A stretch of 64,000 nt of DNA from NCBI GenBank assembly GCA_036426205.1, contig CM071579.1:18194463-18258462 (forward strand), in the 5' to 3' direction. How positions within the stretch are numbered: the stretch's first letter is position 1; every line of letters starts with the position of its first letter. A model generated the notes under the pieces. That model did not search any database and was not told the DNA's origin. It saw nothing but the letters and a program-made list of their open reading frames with translations. Origin of the DNA: Ascaphus truei. Taxonomy: Eukaryota > Chordata > Amphibia > Anura > Ascaphidae. The translations under genes and the position numbers were made by a program. Of this stretch, positions 18,716 through 60,165 are shown one piece after another.

Positions 18716-19505
18716 TTTACTGCATCTAATTGTGAGTGCAATACTTACCATCATTATCTGGTATAGTTTGGACATACTACCCTATGTTTCTTCCCATTTC
18801 CCCTTTTCTTCTATTTTTTTTGCGCCTAGGGCATTCTGCTTCACATTTTAAGTTATGGTGGGTGAAAAAGGCAGCAAGAAACCTCCACCGGGTTTCATAA
18901 CGCCTCCAGTCCACCATTGCTCGATCTTATCCTGTCCACCAGACACCATACGTGTCATACCAACTTCAGGGCAACAGCCGGCAGCAAATCTGTGCTGTCG
19001 TGCTACGTCCGTGGCGGGGGTCATTTCAGACTCAGGGGTGGCTGGGTAAATAGTGCAATCTGGAAGCACGGAGGCCACCGGGCAACAGCCCAAGGATGAG
19101 GGAGAGGGAACTTCATTGTTGGAATCACTGGAAGCGATACAACCTCCTGTATCAACGGAGCAAACCTCATCAGCTGGATCCACAGACTCCACCATTTGTG
19201 AAACCTCAGGTGGATCCACGACCAACTCCTAGACAGTGTCTCCCTCTGGAGGTCCGGCCTGAAGGGTCTCTAGAGGCATCTTAGCGACCGTAGGGATTGG
19301 TACGGCATCACTCCTCACTTCTGGGGTGGAACTCACAGGTTCAGGGTCGTGGATTCCGTCCGTTGATCCAGGTTGTCAGATTTTGCAGAGATCTCATGGA
19401 CAGATCCTTCGGTCTCTCTCAAGTCCCCACTCGCTCAGTCAAAATGTATCAGTGACTGCCGCATGTAAGGCAGTCTGCACTCTGCATGCTTGACAAGGCT
19501 CCTCC
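18716..19505. other. unassigned DNA
   Basis: Includes a minus-strand open frame of about 125 codons (18,848-19,225) that I do not recognise; it is Ser/Pro/Cys-rich and may derive from LTR-element internal sequence. No other feature. Confidence 0.3.
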
Positions 19506-20939: not shown

Positions 20940-21250
20940 CTACAGAAGTACTGCAGGCCGCTTGTTGGAGGACACAGGGGATCAGTTAGGAAATACAGAA
21001 AGCCTGAGATCCAATAGGGTGAATGGTTTCAGAGTCATTGGGAGAGAAAAAGGCAGACAAGGTAGAACAGACGATCTGAATCATCAGCTTCTGTATTTTT
21101 CTGTTCACATTGAAGTAAAGGGTGACACACTGTGCTCATTTGCATGTCATTACCCAGAATCCCTGGCTGCAGCAGAAGCACTGCTTGCTAGGCGATAATG
21201 CGGAAAGACAGCGTTGCAGCCCTGTCTGAGACAAGCAAATGCAACTCACG
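20940..21250 (+). repeat. satellite-2-like unit, partial (octamer and SPH part)
   Basis: Carries gtgctcatttgcatgtcatt (octamer 21,138-21,145) followed by tacccagaatccctggctgc (21,151-21,170, SPH/Staf-like), then the downstream part ctgtctgagacaagcaaatg. No hammerhead is left in this copy. Same family as 36.7-38.3, 50.7-51.2 and 59.8-60.2 kb. Confidence 0.7.
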
Positions 21251-22149
21251 TGGTATTTTTATTTATCATTCCTTGTCCTGTAATAACACAAACATATCCA
21301 CTCCCCTCTCTTTCTTCGTGTATCACCCAGCAGCAGTTTGAATAGGATTAATATTGAATCCCAATGCACTTCAGCCTCTCTCCCAGTGATACAATGTGAC
21401 ATGTCTAATAGAGGATCTCTGAGCTATTATACACGAGGTGTTATTTTGTACAGCTTCAGTTGTGTACCTACATACTTCCTAATGTTTTGAGGCTACGGGG
21501 GTTATTCATCCAACTGTAATAGTACCAATCGGGTCACTACAGCACAGAAACGTAAATTGAAATCACTATGCGTTTTCTGGGGGATAGCCCCAGTTTAATG
21601 AATAACCCCAGTTTAAAACAGTTGTTTGAGTCCAGAAGTCAAATTGCCCATTAATATTCATTGTTTTTTTCTTGTACACTGCTGACAGTGTACGCAGCAC
21701 TGCACATAGATTTTTTGCGGGCACGAACCCTTGCCTTGTAGAGCTTCTATTGCTGTTTTTTTCAGGGGAGTGCAACTGGATAACCCAAAATGAAAGCAAG
21801 AAAGGCAAAAAAGAATGTAGTACGCCTACAGCACAAGGGAATGTACGGTTGGGGGTAATTAATCCTACTCACATCTCCCCCCCCCCCCCCCCCCTCATCC
21901 CAAAAAGGCGTAACCAAAACGGTGGCACATTATTCCACGACAGTCCGAAGTTTATACTACAATAAGTAAGATCATTAAAGCTGCAGATCAAGCAATATCC
22001 TGCATGTGTGTTGTTTTTATAAGTCAGTTCTGTACTATGAGAAAATACTTGTAGCATTTAAAAAAAACAACAACTCCGAATTACATTATTAATGTATTGT
22101 AATGTAACAAGCATGTTTTGCTTCTATAGCAACCATTTACAAAGTCACA
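21251..22149. other. unassigned DNA
   Basis: Poly-C at about 21,877-21,894. No gene or known repeat recognised. Confidence 0.4.
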
Positions 22150-34847: not shown

Positions 34848-36068
34848 AGTATAGTATTGTATAGTATAATACAGCATAGTATTGTATAGTATATTGTAGT
34901 ATACCATGTACTGTATAGTATTGTATAGTATACAGTAGTATGGTATGTTATAATATGGTAATGTCTAGTTGGTTTGGTATGGTTTAGTATAATACAGGAT
35001 AGCATAGTATGGTATAGTATAATACAGTATAGTATTGTATAGTATATTGTAGTATACCATAGTACTGTATAGTATTGTATAGTATACAGTAGTATGGTAT
35101 GTTATAATATGGTATAGTATAGTATGGTTTGGTATGGTTTAGTATAATACAGGATAGCATAGTATTGTATAGTATAATACAGCATAGTATTGTATAGTAT
35201 ATTGTAGTATACCATAGTACTGTATAGTATTGTATAGTATACAGTAGTATGGTATGTTATAATATGGTATAGTCTAGTATGGTTCGGTATGGTTTAGTAT
35301 AATACAGGATAGCATAGTATGGTATAGTATAATACAGTATAGTATTGTATGTTATAGCAGCGGAGCAGCGGTGCGCAAACTGGGGGGCGCAGGGTTTACA
35401 GAGGCCCTGTGCGCTTCCGAAGACACTTTAATTAAGTGCCAGGGGAGCTGCAGGGCCTCTGTAAACCTTTACTTACCTTGACTACACACGCGTCGCCGTG
35501 GCAACGTGACGTCATGACGCCTGGTCCAATGCCAGTGGGGGTGAGGTGACCGCTGGCAGGGGGGCGCAGGGAAAAAAAGTTTGTGCCCCCGTGTGTTATA
35601 GCATAGTATGGTATAGTATAATACAGTATAGTATGGTATAGTATAGTTTGGTATAATATGGTATACTATAATACAGTATAGTATTGTATGTTAGCATAGT
35701 ATGGTATAGTATAGTATGGTATAGTATAATACAGTATAGTATGGTATAGTATAATACAGTATAGTATGGTATAGTATAATACAGTATGTAGGTTATAGAT
35801 TATACTACAGTATAGTATGGTATAGTATAATATGTATAGTATAGTAGTTGATATAGTATATACATATAGTGGTATAGTATAAATAGAGTTAGTATGGTAT
35901 AGGTAATACAGTATAGGCATAGGATAAGTATCATACAGTAGAGATGGTATAGCGAATACAGTATAGTATGGTATAGTATAATACAGTATAGTATAGTATG
36001 GTATAGTATAATACAGTATAGTATGGTATAGTATAATACAATATAGTATGGTATAGTATAATACAGTT
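34848..36068. repeat. TAGTA/GTATA simple satellite, about 1.2 kb
   Basis: 5- and 10-bp units such as tagtatggtatagtataata with higher-order copies of roughly 170 bp in the first half (tacagtagtatggtatgtta recurs). Strongly AT-rich and able to form cruciforms. Interrupted by a hAT MITE at 35,358-35,593. Confidence 0.93.
35358..35593. mobile_element. hAT MITE in the satellite, 8-bp target duplication
   Basis: Flanked by TGTTATAG at 35,350-35,357 and 35,594-35,601. Ends resemble each other in inverted order (gcggtgcgcaaactgggg; reverse complement of the right end cacgggggcacaaact). Non-coding and GC-rich. Confidence 0.8.
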
Positions 36069-36650: not shown

Positions 36651-36711
36651 ACTGTATCTCTAAAAAATAAGGTTAAAATGGATTTGAAGGAAAAGGTGAC
36701 ACTGTGTGCTC

Positions 36712-36744
36712 ATTTGCATATCATTACCCAGAATCCCTGGCTGC
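36712..36744 (+). promoter_or_regulatory. octamer and SPH/Staf-like element (DSE-like)
   Basis: ATTTGCAT at 36,712-36,719 then tacccagaatccctggctgc at 36,725-36,744. Octamer (Oct-1) plus SPH (Staf/ZNF143) sites together form the distal element of snRNA-type promoters. The second monomer repeats this at 38,167-38,199. Confidence 0.6.
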
Positions 36745-36814
36745 AGTGGAAGTAGTGTATGGTAAATGATAATGGTGAAAAGCCTTGGTCTGAGACATGT
36801 TATTGTGCTCACAG

Positions 36815-37859
36815 GTAGGGTTGCCACCTTCTGATGAATAATAACCTGGAGACTTTTTACAGGTTTTTATTTATACGTTTAAGTGTCTTACCTTCTCCGG
36901 CTGCGGCATCATCATCATCATCACCCCAGTGTACATCTGCGTTGCCCCGAAGGCGGAGAGCCTGATGGGGCTCCCCAAGAGCTGCTGCCCTCTGCACAGG
37001 ACCAGCGTGCTAAGGGTTAACGTTTGCTTGTACTTTGAGGAACGTCAACCCCACCCACTGGAATGTTAATGAGCCAAGAGGACACAAAGAACTTTGTGTT
37101 CACAGCTGCATTGAATCGCAACACCCCCAGTGTACATCTGCATTGCCCCAAAGGCGGACAGCCTTGGGTGCAGCCAAAGGGTGTGAGCCGTTTGCTGCCG
37201 TTCGCTGATGTTTGGTGATGTTTAAGCTTCTCTATTTCAATCTGAAACTCACCAGCCCTTTTATCCCCTGTACCCAATTTTCCAACTCTATCTGCCCATG
37301 AAATGTCTGTGAATTGACCGTATAACCCTGTTCTTTTAATGTAACCATGTATTGTTATAACTCTGTGCCCAGGACATACGTGAAAACGAGAGGTAACTCT
37401 CGGTGTATTACTTCCTGGAAACACATTTTTATAGATATATAAATAAATACAATCTTATAAATAAATCTGGCTGCATCTCCCGCTGCATGGTCCCATCAAG
37501 ATGGCTCGGCGATGTCAAAGGGTGTCGCGTTGCCACAACAGTGGGATGTCACATGACGTCGTGGTGCCATGTGGCATCACATTGCCATGACAACAGACCA
37601 CCCTGCAGCGCCGCGTTGCCACGACAACGTGACGCCCCGTTGTCAATGCAGCGCGATGCCATTTGACGTTGTGGAGCCATCTTGACAGGACCATGCAGGT
37701 GGAGACGCCGCTGCCGGAGAAGATGAGAGCCGAGGCTCCGCACCAAACATCTCAGCCGGCCCTTCAGTAACCCGGAGATTTCATATTACAACCCGTAGTC
37801 CGGAGATACCTCGCCGAAACTCGTAGTCTCCGGGTCAAACCCGGAGTGGTGGCCACCCT
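36815..37859. mobile_element. TAGGGTTGCCACC-type DNA transposon
   Basis: Begins gtagggttgccacc and ends ggtggccaccct. Flanks gctcacag and gctcccaa agree at 6 of 8 positions, so a hAT-like 8-bp duplication is plausible. The satellite-2-like unit reads through once it is removed. It contains a LINE 3' tail and a direct repeat (cagtgtacatctgcgttgcc at about 36,927 and its variant at about 37,128). Confidence 0.6.
37262..37447 (+). repeat. LINE 3' end, plus orientation
   Basis: gtgaaaacgagaggtaactc then gtgtattacttcctgg are the reverse complement of the LINE 3' ends at 12,841 and 25,776. Ends in an aataaata-type tail. Confidence 0.8.
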
Positions 37860-37925
37860 GCTCCCAAGTGATAGTTTTTATTTGCTGTACTCTGCACTGC
37901 GGAGGATTTTTGGCACTTTTATACC

Positions 37926-37937
37926 CACCATAACTTA
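37926..37937 (+). promoter_or_regulatory. PSE-like box of satellite-2-like unit
   Basis: CACCATAACTTA, resembling the snRNA proximal sequence element (U6 type: ACCGTAACTTGAAAG). It lies about 165 bp from the octamer after removing the inserted transposon, the usual DSE-PSE distance, and about 60-70 bp before the hammerhead. No TATA box follows, so RNA polymerase II type is more likely. Confidence 0.5.
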
Positions 37938-37994
37938 TATAAGGTGTGGGTGAAACCTATTCCAACTTCACATTGCAAAGCCAGTATAACCATC

Positions 37995-38037
37995 CTCACT
38001 TGGCGAGACCCAAAAGGGTGAAAAAGCTGTCTGTGAG
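37995..38037 (+). ncRNA. hammerhead motif, satellite-2-like, degenerate core
   Basis: Stem I CTCAC/GTGAG, core TTGGCGA where CTGATGA is expected, stem II GACCC/GGGT, GAAA, then a GTC cleavage triplet before TGTGAG. Two core changes and a small deletion probably abolish cleavage. The paired copy at 59.9 kb shows the intact version. Confidence 0.6.
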
Positions 38038-38300
38038 TCGGTTACTGACTCTGCGCTTCTTTAACCCAGGCTGTGCTGGAAAGCTGTATAATGCAGCAGG
38101 CGTACTGTAAGCTTATAGAGCTCCATGTAAAAATGGATTTCAGGCAAAAGGTGATACTGAGTGCTCATTTGCATGTAATTTCCCAGAATCCCTGGCTGCA
38201 GTGGAAACACTGTATGCTAAGAGATGGTGGTGAAAGGCAGGGGTGCAGACCTGTCTGAGACATGTAACTATGCTCACAAGTGATATTTTTATGTGCTATA

Positions 38301-50708: not shown

Positions 50709-50744
50709 CACAATGTAAAATAAAAAATATCCCTTGTGAACACA

Positions 50745-51165
50745 TTATGTCTCAGACAGGCCTGCAACCTCACATCCCACCATTATCGCTTAGCATACAG
50801 TGCGTCCGTTGCAGCCAGGGATTCTGGGTAATGACACGCAACCTCACATCCCACCATTATCGCTTAGCATACAGTGTGTCTGCTGCAGCCAGGGATTCTG
50901 GGTAATGACACGCAACCTCACATCTCACCATTATCGCTTAGCATACAGTGCGTCCGCTGCAGCCAGGGATTCTGGGTAATGACACGCAACCTCCCATCTC
51001 ACCATTATCGCTTAGCATACAGTGCGTCCGCTGCAGCCAGGGATTTCTGGGAATGAACGCACCTAAAATCCCACCATTATCGATGATAGCATACAGTGCG
51101 TCCGCTGCAGCCAGGGATTCTGGGTAATGACACGCAACCTCGCTTCCCACCATTATCTCACCAAG
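50745..51165 (-). repeat. 74-bp tandem array derived from the satellite-2-like family
   Basis: Units start at 50,765, 50,839, 50,913 and 50,987, exactly 74 bp apart, with a fifth, partly diverged. Each holds gcagccagggattctgggta, the complement of the SPH-like part. The octamer is lost from each unit (gacacgcaacctc where gacatgcaaatgagc is expected). Confidence 0.9.
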
Positions 51166-59805: not shown

Positions 59806-59829
59806 GTCAGTTTTTTGCACTATTTTTAC

Positions 59830-59841
59830 CCACCATAACTT
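59830..59841 (+). promoter_or_regulatory. PSE-like box
   Basis: CACCATAACTTA, identical to 37,926-37,937 and 66 bp before the hammerhead start. Confidence 0.5.
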
Positions 59842-59895
59842 ATTTAATGTGTGAAACCTCTTACAGTGTCACATTGCAACGCTAATATAACCAGC

Positions 59896-59939
59896 CTCAC
59901 ACTGATGAGACCCAAACGGTCGAAAGAGCCGTCTGTGAG
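59896..59939 (+). ncRNA. hammerhead ribozyme, near-canonical
   Basis: Stem I CTCACA/TGTGAG is perfect over 6 bp. Core CTGATGA at 59,902-59,908, stem II GACC/GGTC around caaac, GAAA at 59,922-59,925, cleavage triplet GTC ending at 59,933. All core bases fit. Stem III (after GAAA, gagccg) is reduced to one pair, so self-cleavage as a monomer may be weak. Confidence 0.82.
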
Positions 59940-60064
59940 TTGGGTTACTGGCTCTGCACTTCTTTAACCCATGCTGTGCTGAAAAGCTGTGTAATACGGC
60001 AGGCAGAAGCTTACAGGGATCCATGGTAAAATGAACAGGAAGCAAAATGTGACACTGTGTGCTC

Positions 60065-60097
60065 ATTTGCATGTCATTACCCAGAATCCCTAGCTGC
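60065..60097 (+). promoter_or_regulatory. octamer and SPH/Staf-like element
   Basis: ATTTGCAT at 60,065-60,072 and tacccagaatccctagctgc at 60,078-60,097. Confidence 0.6.
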
Positions 60098-60165
60098 AGC
60101 GGAAGAACTGTATGCTAAGAGACAATGGGGAAAAGCAGGGTTGCAGACCGGTTTCACGTAAGTTT

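Follow-up and report, generated by a model that had tools for sequence, protein, structure and literature searches.

The window analysed here, a stretch of 64,000 bp from Ascaphus truei, contains at positions 36,672-38,300 of the forward strand a copy (copy A) of a repeat with a 408-bp consensus unit. The alignment of copy A to the consensus runs from unit position 235 through one unit junction to 408, and without a 1,043-bp insert the copy is 582 bp long, corresponding to 1.43 units. Its 5′ partial unit (unit 235-389; window 36,672-36,816; 90% identity to the consensus over aligned bases) contains the octamer ATTTGCAT at 36,712-36,719 and the SPH-like element CCCAGAATCC from 36,727, both as stated in the original prediction. 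The insert splits the copy at 36,817-37,859. It is regarded as DNA-transposon-like because its termini are nearly inverted (AGGGTTGCCACC and GGTGGCCACCCT) and because it is flanked by GCTCACAGGT and GCTCCCAAGT, an imperfect 10-bp duplication with 8 of 10 positions identical. The full unit 3′ of the insert (unit 379 to 408; window 37,860-38,300; 90% identity) contains, all on the forward strand, a PSE-like element CCCACCATAACTTATATAAG at 37,924-37,943, found with a 19-bp pattern and including CACCATAACTTA at 37,926; a decayed extended hammerhead at 37,978-38,053, delimited by alignment to the consensus; and, at 38,167-38,199, a second octamer (ATTTGCAT, 38,167) with its SPH-like element (CCCAGAATCC, 38,182). 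The PSE-like element and this second octamer had likewise been predicted at these positions.

The hammerhead had been placed at about 37,995. The position is right, with the core CTTGGCGAG at 37,999, but the ribozyme is not intact: the core is mutated, reading TTGGCGAG and GGTGAAAAA, and Rfam gave no match to it even at E ≤ 1. When the insert is removed, the octamer lies 165 bp before the PSE, the PSE lies 73 bp before the hammerhead core and 54 bp before the extended stem I, which begins at 37,980, and the two octamers are 406 bp apart. These spacings are near those claimed, and the expected unit of about 400 bp agrees with the 408-bp consensus. Copy A terminates at the common 3′ end of the family (TTTTTATGTGCTATA) and carries its own flanking duplication (TAAAAAAT); what had been described as two monomers is thus most simply a single retro-insertion of about 1.43 units. 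The idea that this copy drives a hammerhead repeat was wrong in detail: because the ribozyme core is mutated and the insert parts the octamer from the PSE, copy A is unlikely to be driving anything now. Just upstream of copy A lie two AT-rich arrays of 5-bp units (34,848-35,350 and 35,597-36,060), the former with a higher-order period of 155 bp.

Further copies are present in the window. Copy B (59,810-60,152, forward strand; unit 17-362, one unit, 90% identity) contains a PSE-like element at 59,829-59,848, again matched by the 19-bp pattern, and an intact type I hammerhead at 59,896-59,939 (Rfam RF00163, 38.4 bits, E 3.8e-06), the only match in the window at the Rfam gathering score, which is 34 for the hammerhead model. 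From its sequence, this ribozyme is expected to cleave after the GTC at 59,931-59,933. An octamer and SPH-like element follow 3′ of the ribozyme at 60,065-60,097 on the same strand; the copy starts at unit 17 and is consequently without an octamer upstream of its PSE. Copy C (21,111-21,264, forward strand; unit 248-402, 86% identity) is a 3′ part with the octamer and SPH only, and copy D (18,842-18,890, reverse strand; unit 8-57, 88% identity over about 50 bp) is a short 5′ piece with a PSE-like element. Copy E (50,710-51,157, reverse strand), delimited by consensus alignment and TRF, consists of the 3′ end of the unit and a 74-bp tandem array with the SPH-like element, and reads GGTTGCGT at the octamer position. 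The array itself (50,764-51,157, reverse strand; 5.3 copies by TRF) repeats the SPH/ZNF143-like part without the octamer, the enhancer block having been amplified locally. With up to three mismatches allowed, the octamer-plus-SPH pattern matched at eight places in the window, whereas 100 shuffles gave a mean of 0.00; the 19-bp PSE-like pattern gave two matches, against 0.03. The 22 other Rfam matches at E ≤ 1, from the region 34,000-64,000, were rejected as lying below gathering score, most of them being miRNA models on simple repeats.

A first search of the 2.82-Gb assembly gave 7,658 candidates, 40 of which were scored, and the consensus was built from the 39 fetched scored copies with copy A excluded; these 39 are the copies that match a decayed one most closely rather than a random sample. 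The first landmark of the unit is the PSE-like element (CACCATAACTTA at 37). Next comes the type I hammerhead, whose extended stem I (GCCAGTA) starts at 91, whose core CTGATGAG lies at 112 and whose GTC ends at 143. The octamer (275), the SPH (290) and the 3′ end near 405 follow. Helix III of the hammerhead, AC-AGCU-GU, is short and palindromic. Read across a unit junction, the octamer/SPH block is followed about 165-170 bp downstream by the PSE and a further 55-75 bp downstream by the hammerhead. In the sampled copies the distance from PSE to core was 75 bp in 24 of 41 cases and 70-81 bp in all 41, and that from octamer to next PSE was 158-170 bp in all seven. The octamer was exact in 38 of 44 cases and the SPH 10-mer in 38 of 47, and a loose core pattern was passed by only 12 of 40 core regions, a generous count that includes L027, which is without the GTC, and L045 and L046, which read CTGATGAA. 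Rfam gathering score was reached by one of the 39 fetched loci (L043, Hammerhead_1) and by none of the other 38, and the majority of sampled copies look dead. A genome pattern one base different from the intact ribozyme design gave 10 matches, which are length variants only. No match was found for a 441-bp query in a plasmid collection by blastn, or for an exact 23-place pattern in viral contigs.

The layout was compared with that of the snRNA genes of the same genome. The U2 genes used were the three of 30 loci (L049, L050 and L052) that begin with ATCGCTTCTCGGCC. L059, which begins like a shortened U2 (ATCGCTTCTCGGCTAAG) and is without CTCCCTAA upstream, was left out, and the remaining U2 loci begin differently. 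The U6 reference was L079, the sole intact-looking gene among 12 U6 loci. In these genes CTCCCTAA lies at −60, −64 and −60 (U2) and at −61 (U6), and TTTTGCAT lies at −192 to −196 in the U2 genes. Upstream of the U6 gene lie an octamer-like ATTTGCAA (−264), an SPH-like CCCAGCAT (−251), further ATTTGCA motifs (−212 and −157) and TATATTA (−28); in the repeat the SPH stands 15 bp past the octamer. The genome also has a U2 snRNA cluster at C8:56.8-57.4 Mb in which some genes are about 1 kb apart and many model matches are decayed or oddly placed; homopolymer length differences there may be assembly errors.

Applied to the PSE position of the repeat, this spacing places the predicted start at unit 97-101, within the 5′ strand of the extended stem I. 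snRNA promoters have the PSE 40-70 bp upstream of the start and the DSE at −250 to −170 (PMC9652321), and most SNAPc promoters carry octamer and ZNF143 motifs (PMC3499247). Reckoned from the predicted start, the consensus octamer lies 230-234 bp upstream and the octamer and SPH are within the DSE zone of −170 to −250; the position of the PSE at −40 to −70 fits only since the start itself was predicted from the PSE. No clear TATA box was found at −30 of the predicted start, where the consensus reads ACCTATTCC, and TTATATAA at unit 46-53 falls inside the PSE. Absence of a TATA box goes with Pol II in vertebrates (PMC9652321).

The identification of the PSE-like element as a PSE is based on position and resemblance. 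The element presumably resembles the human U6 PSE. In a weak PSE model made from only two gene types of this genome (U2 and U6), the PSE of the repeat tied for third to fifth place in the unit, and the top score of the unit was reached by a fraction of 0.442 of 1,000 shuffles; support from the model was not significant. A gapped match between the unit and the U6 distal region landed on the octamer/SPH, with a fraction of 0.278 of 500 shuffles scoring as high.

The original prediction withstood the first of its two refuting conditions, since the spacing of octamer, PSE and hammerhead is kept throughout the genome. The exact pattern octamer-N(148-176)-ACCATAACTTA has 5,368 matches (2,689 + 2,679) in 2.82 Gb, against none for its reversed control, and the pattern shifted 48 bp off phase has 103, against two for its own reversed control. 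Trios, in which CTGANGAG follows such a pair 50-78 bp downstream, number 1,404 exact matches (713 and 691; reversed control, 0), the pattern probing CTGANGAG only and not the entire ribozyme. Among the first 100 pairs listed, all on contig C1, the octamer-PSE distance has a median of 168 bp and an interquartile range of 164-172, within an allowed range of 156-184. Some of the trios sit in tandem arrays with a period of about 400 bp; the array at C1:10,700,772-10,707,288 has nine pairs at about 400 bp or multiples thereof, and in seven of these the ribozyme core is present as well. Given the common descent of the copies, kept spacing alone indicates an ancestral design and not function. Three further copies in 105,439 flank bases correspond to about 80,000 genome-wide, a rough guess with a Poisson range of about 17,000-235,000.

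The ends of 40 copies (the 39 fetched and copy A) were analysed for signs of how the repeat spreads. The 3′ end was found at unit 398-408 or 1-4 in 36 of them, the 5′ starts vary widely, falling at unit 208-405 and 7-33, and the insertions span 0.92-1.50 units. Shared flank strings of at least 8 bp occur in 11 of the 40 (300 permutations gave 0.8 on average and never more than 4) and are detectable target-site duplications. No LTR was seen, the sampled copies simply stopping at unit ends. The full succession of octamer, PSE and ribozyme is found in only three copies (L010, L044 and copy A), and L010 and L044 are damaged by changes in the upstream octamer, PSE and core. Four others (L023, L024, L028 and L033) span the octamer and the next PSE and end at unit 52-69 of the next unit, which suggests a second reverse-transcription start point or multimeric templates. 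In L019 and L023 a full copy is directly adjoined by an inverted partial copy, an arrangement expected from twin-priming or snap-back events. If the template were a linear RNA with a cut at 143/144, at most about 262 nt upstream of 405 would be available, and a circular or multimeric template would therefore be needed. In the animal retrozyme model, ribozyme-cut RNA is circularised by a host ligase, and the circular RNA serves as the template, possibly primed at the DNA target (PMC7229834). The ends, spans and target-site duplications of the repeat fit this published model.

Substitution is unevenly distributed along the unit. The 14 windows of 32 bp with the lowest values, both for shared and for all substitutions, begin at unit 267-280, in the octamer/SPH block. 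Shared substitutions are three times rarer in this block than elsewhere (0.024 vs 0.071) and private ones 1.5 times rarer (0.017 vs 0.026); private substitutions at unit 361-408 are as rare as at the block. The identity of the octamer/SPH exceeds that of the rest of the unit in 35 of 39 copies. Identity ranks were computed only at positions at which copy A agrees with the consensus, so as to offset the choice of copies; they place the octamer third of 382 windows and the SPH third of 393, with the PSE at 90 of 386 and the ribozyme core at 217 of 382, neither of these two showing above-average conservation. The simplest reading of the octamer/SPH retention is that the enhancer would have been under selection in source copies. 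The missing constraint signal at the PSE and ribozyme counts against a simple story; these elements may vary among subfamilies or matter less. A segment at unit 178-197 (CCCAGGCTGTGCTGAAAAGC), without a known motif, has a conservation nearly equal to that of the octamer/SPH block.

From these sequence features, the repeat is probably a retrozyme of the salamander satellite-2 kind, non-autonomous, with an snRNA-type promoter that is rebuilt across the unit junction. In the proposed cycle, Oct-1/ZNF143 and SNAPc would drive Pol II transcription of multi-unit copies, and the hammerheads would cut the multimeric RNA, probably as pairs because helix III is weak and palindromic. Dimer action has been reported for axolotl hammerheads (PMC7229834). 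Every monomer would then hold both promoter halves and could be circularised by a host ligase, a step taken from the same model (PMC7229834). Reverse transcription would begin at about unit 405, where the ends are observed, and might run round a circle or along a multimer, its laps giving 0.9-1.5-unit insertions with target-site duplications. Insertions of at least about 1.32 units, reaching past the octamer, would restore the promoter upstream of the ribozyme and could become new sources. A more specific proposal is that an external-type promoter is kept by permutation: the transcript of one unit would hold the control elements of the next, and more than one lap would restore their order. The chances for and against this permutation appear about even.

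That the octamer and PSE are mere passengers of a retrozyme transcribed by read-through from neighbouring genes, their spacing being due to common descent only, is unlikely. Descent by itself does keep spacing, the PSE is conserved no more than average, and the full order is found in only three of 40 sampled copies, all damaged; however, descent leaves unexplained why the octamer/SPH block changes most slowly, mainly in shared substitutions, and why three elements are laid out as in snRNA genes; the U6 gene of this genome, too, has an SPH-like element a short way downstream of an octamer-like one. That the repeat is SINE-like, with a type 3 (U6-like) promoter used by Pol III and termination at the TTTTT close to the 3′ end, is very improbable. 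Pol III is expected not to pass T-runs. The consensus has such runs at unit 394-398, 18-22 and 28-33, all three positions are spanned in the 27 of 40 copies whose 5′ start falls at unit 208-386, and each of the 30 readable junction segments has kept four or more T in a row; the kept runs therefore argue against a Pol III template. The lack of a clear TATA box around −30, near where the U6 gene of this genome has its TATATTA, points the same way, although U6-type promoters also have a PSE and octamer/SPH and a T-run does lie 7-10 bp before the commonest 3′ ends. Least probable of all is a satellite array of the ordinary sort that unequal crossing-over has spread, with the ribozyme and promoter motifs as fossils that play no part in the spread: tandem arrays do exist (C1:10.70 Mb) and the sampled ribozymes are mostly decayed, but the 40 sampled copies span 0.92-1.50 units, 36 share the common 3′ end, and 11 have target-site duplications.

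Returning to the retrozyme with a rebuilt promoter, the repeat has sequence characters of metazoan (non-LTR) retrozymes, namely a type I hammerhead (recognised by Rfam in copy B and L043) in a repeat of about 150-400 bp (here a 408-bp unit), tandem copies (the array at C1:10.70 Mb) and target-site duplications longer than 4 bp (8 bp or more in 11 of the sampled copies). Retrozymes of this kind also have abundant linear and circular monomeric RNA. Salamander satellite 2 is reportedly the subject of a 1987 paper by Epstein and Gall, and Coats is said to have described in 1994 an snRNA-type promoter in newt satellite 2. As described for satellite 2 and axolotl retrozymes (PMC7229834), these share with the present repeat a type I hammerhead with a weak helix III and palindromic tetraloop, a unit of a few hundred bp, tandem repetition and high copy number. 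The likeness is one of features, and the unit is 408 bp here rather than 330-350 bp; unlike in those elements, the promoter spacing of this repeat has been counted genome-wide. A hammerhead inside interspersed repeats of an amphibian is likewise described in Xenopus tropicalis (PMC3088659). Plant LTR retrozymes are also proposed to use a ribozyme-made circular RNA intermediate (PMC4918200), and in Nicotiana benthamiana the promoter lies inside the repeated LTR (PMC9695139, PMC12029980), much as the putative promoter lies inside the repeat here. As far as these sources describe them, the plant elements have a type III hammerhead, LTRs and 4-bp duplications, whereas the present repeat has a type I hammerhead, no LTR seen and longer duplications. 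As in Pol II snRNA genes (PMC9652321, PMC3499247), there is a PSE-like element, a DSE-like pair of octamer and ZNF143 motif, and no clear TATA box; unlike in those genes, the two halves of the putative promoter are situated 3′ of the predicted start within their own unit and would serve the next one, and the repeat encodes no snRNA.

Hammerhead repeats and their proposed spread through circular RNA are already known. Among the titles and beginnings of abstracts listed by a literature search, with older subscription papers outside its scope, none reports an animal hammerhead repeat with such a promoter, and no paper searched had a hammerhead ribozyme together with a proximal sequence element. 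As far as this search shows, what is new is that the complete arrangement has been counted across a genome, that the enhancer block is constrained, and that the promoter order is restored over the unit junction in insertions longer than about 1.32 units.

For the transcription of animal retrozymes, a 2020 review supposes read-through, since no promoter was seen (PMC7761336). The snRNA-like promoter signals offer a testable answer, with specific predictions of a start at unit 97-101, a cut at 143/144 and a reverse transcription start near 405, and the genome, as a large natural data set, allows promoter motifs, spacing and insertion ends to be read together. If the permutation reading is true, candidate source genes would be found among the 1,404 exact trios, the octamer/SPH retention would reflect selection on the element for transcription, and the arrangement would be a ribozyme-based counterpart of LTR duplication in LTR retroelements. 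If confirmed, this would explain why retrotransposition does not cost a non-coding element its upstream-type promoter and the element survives.
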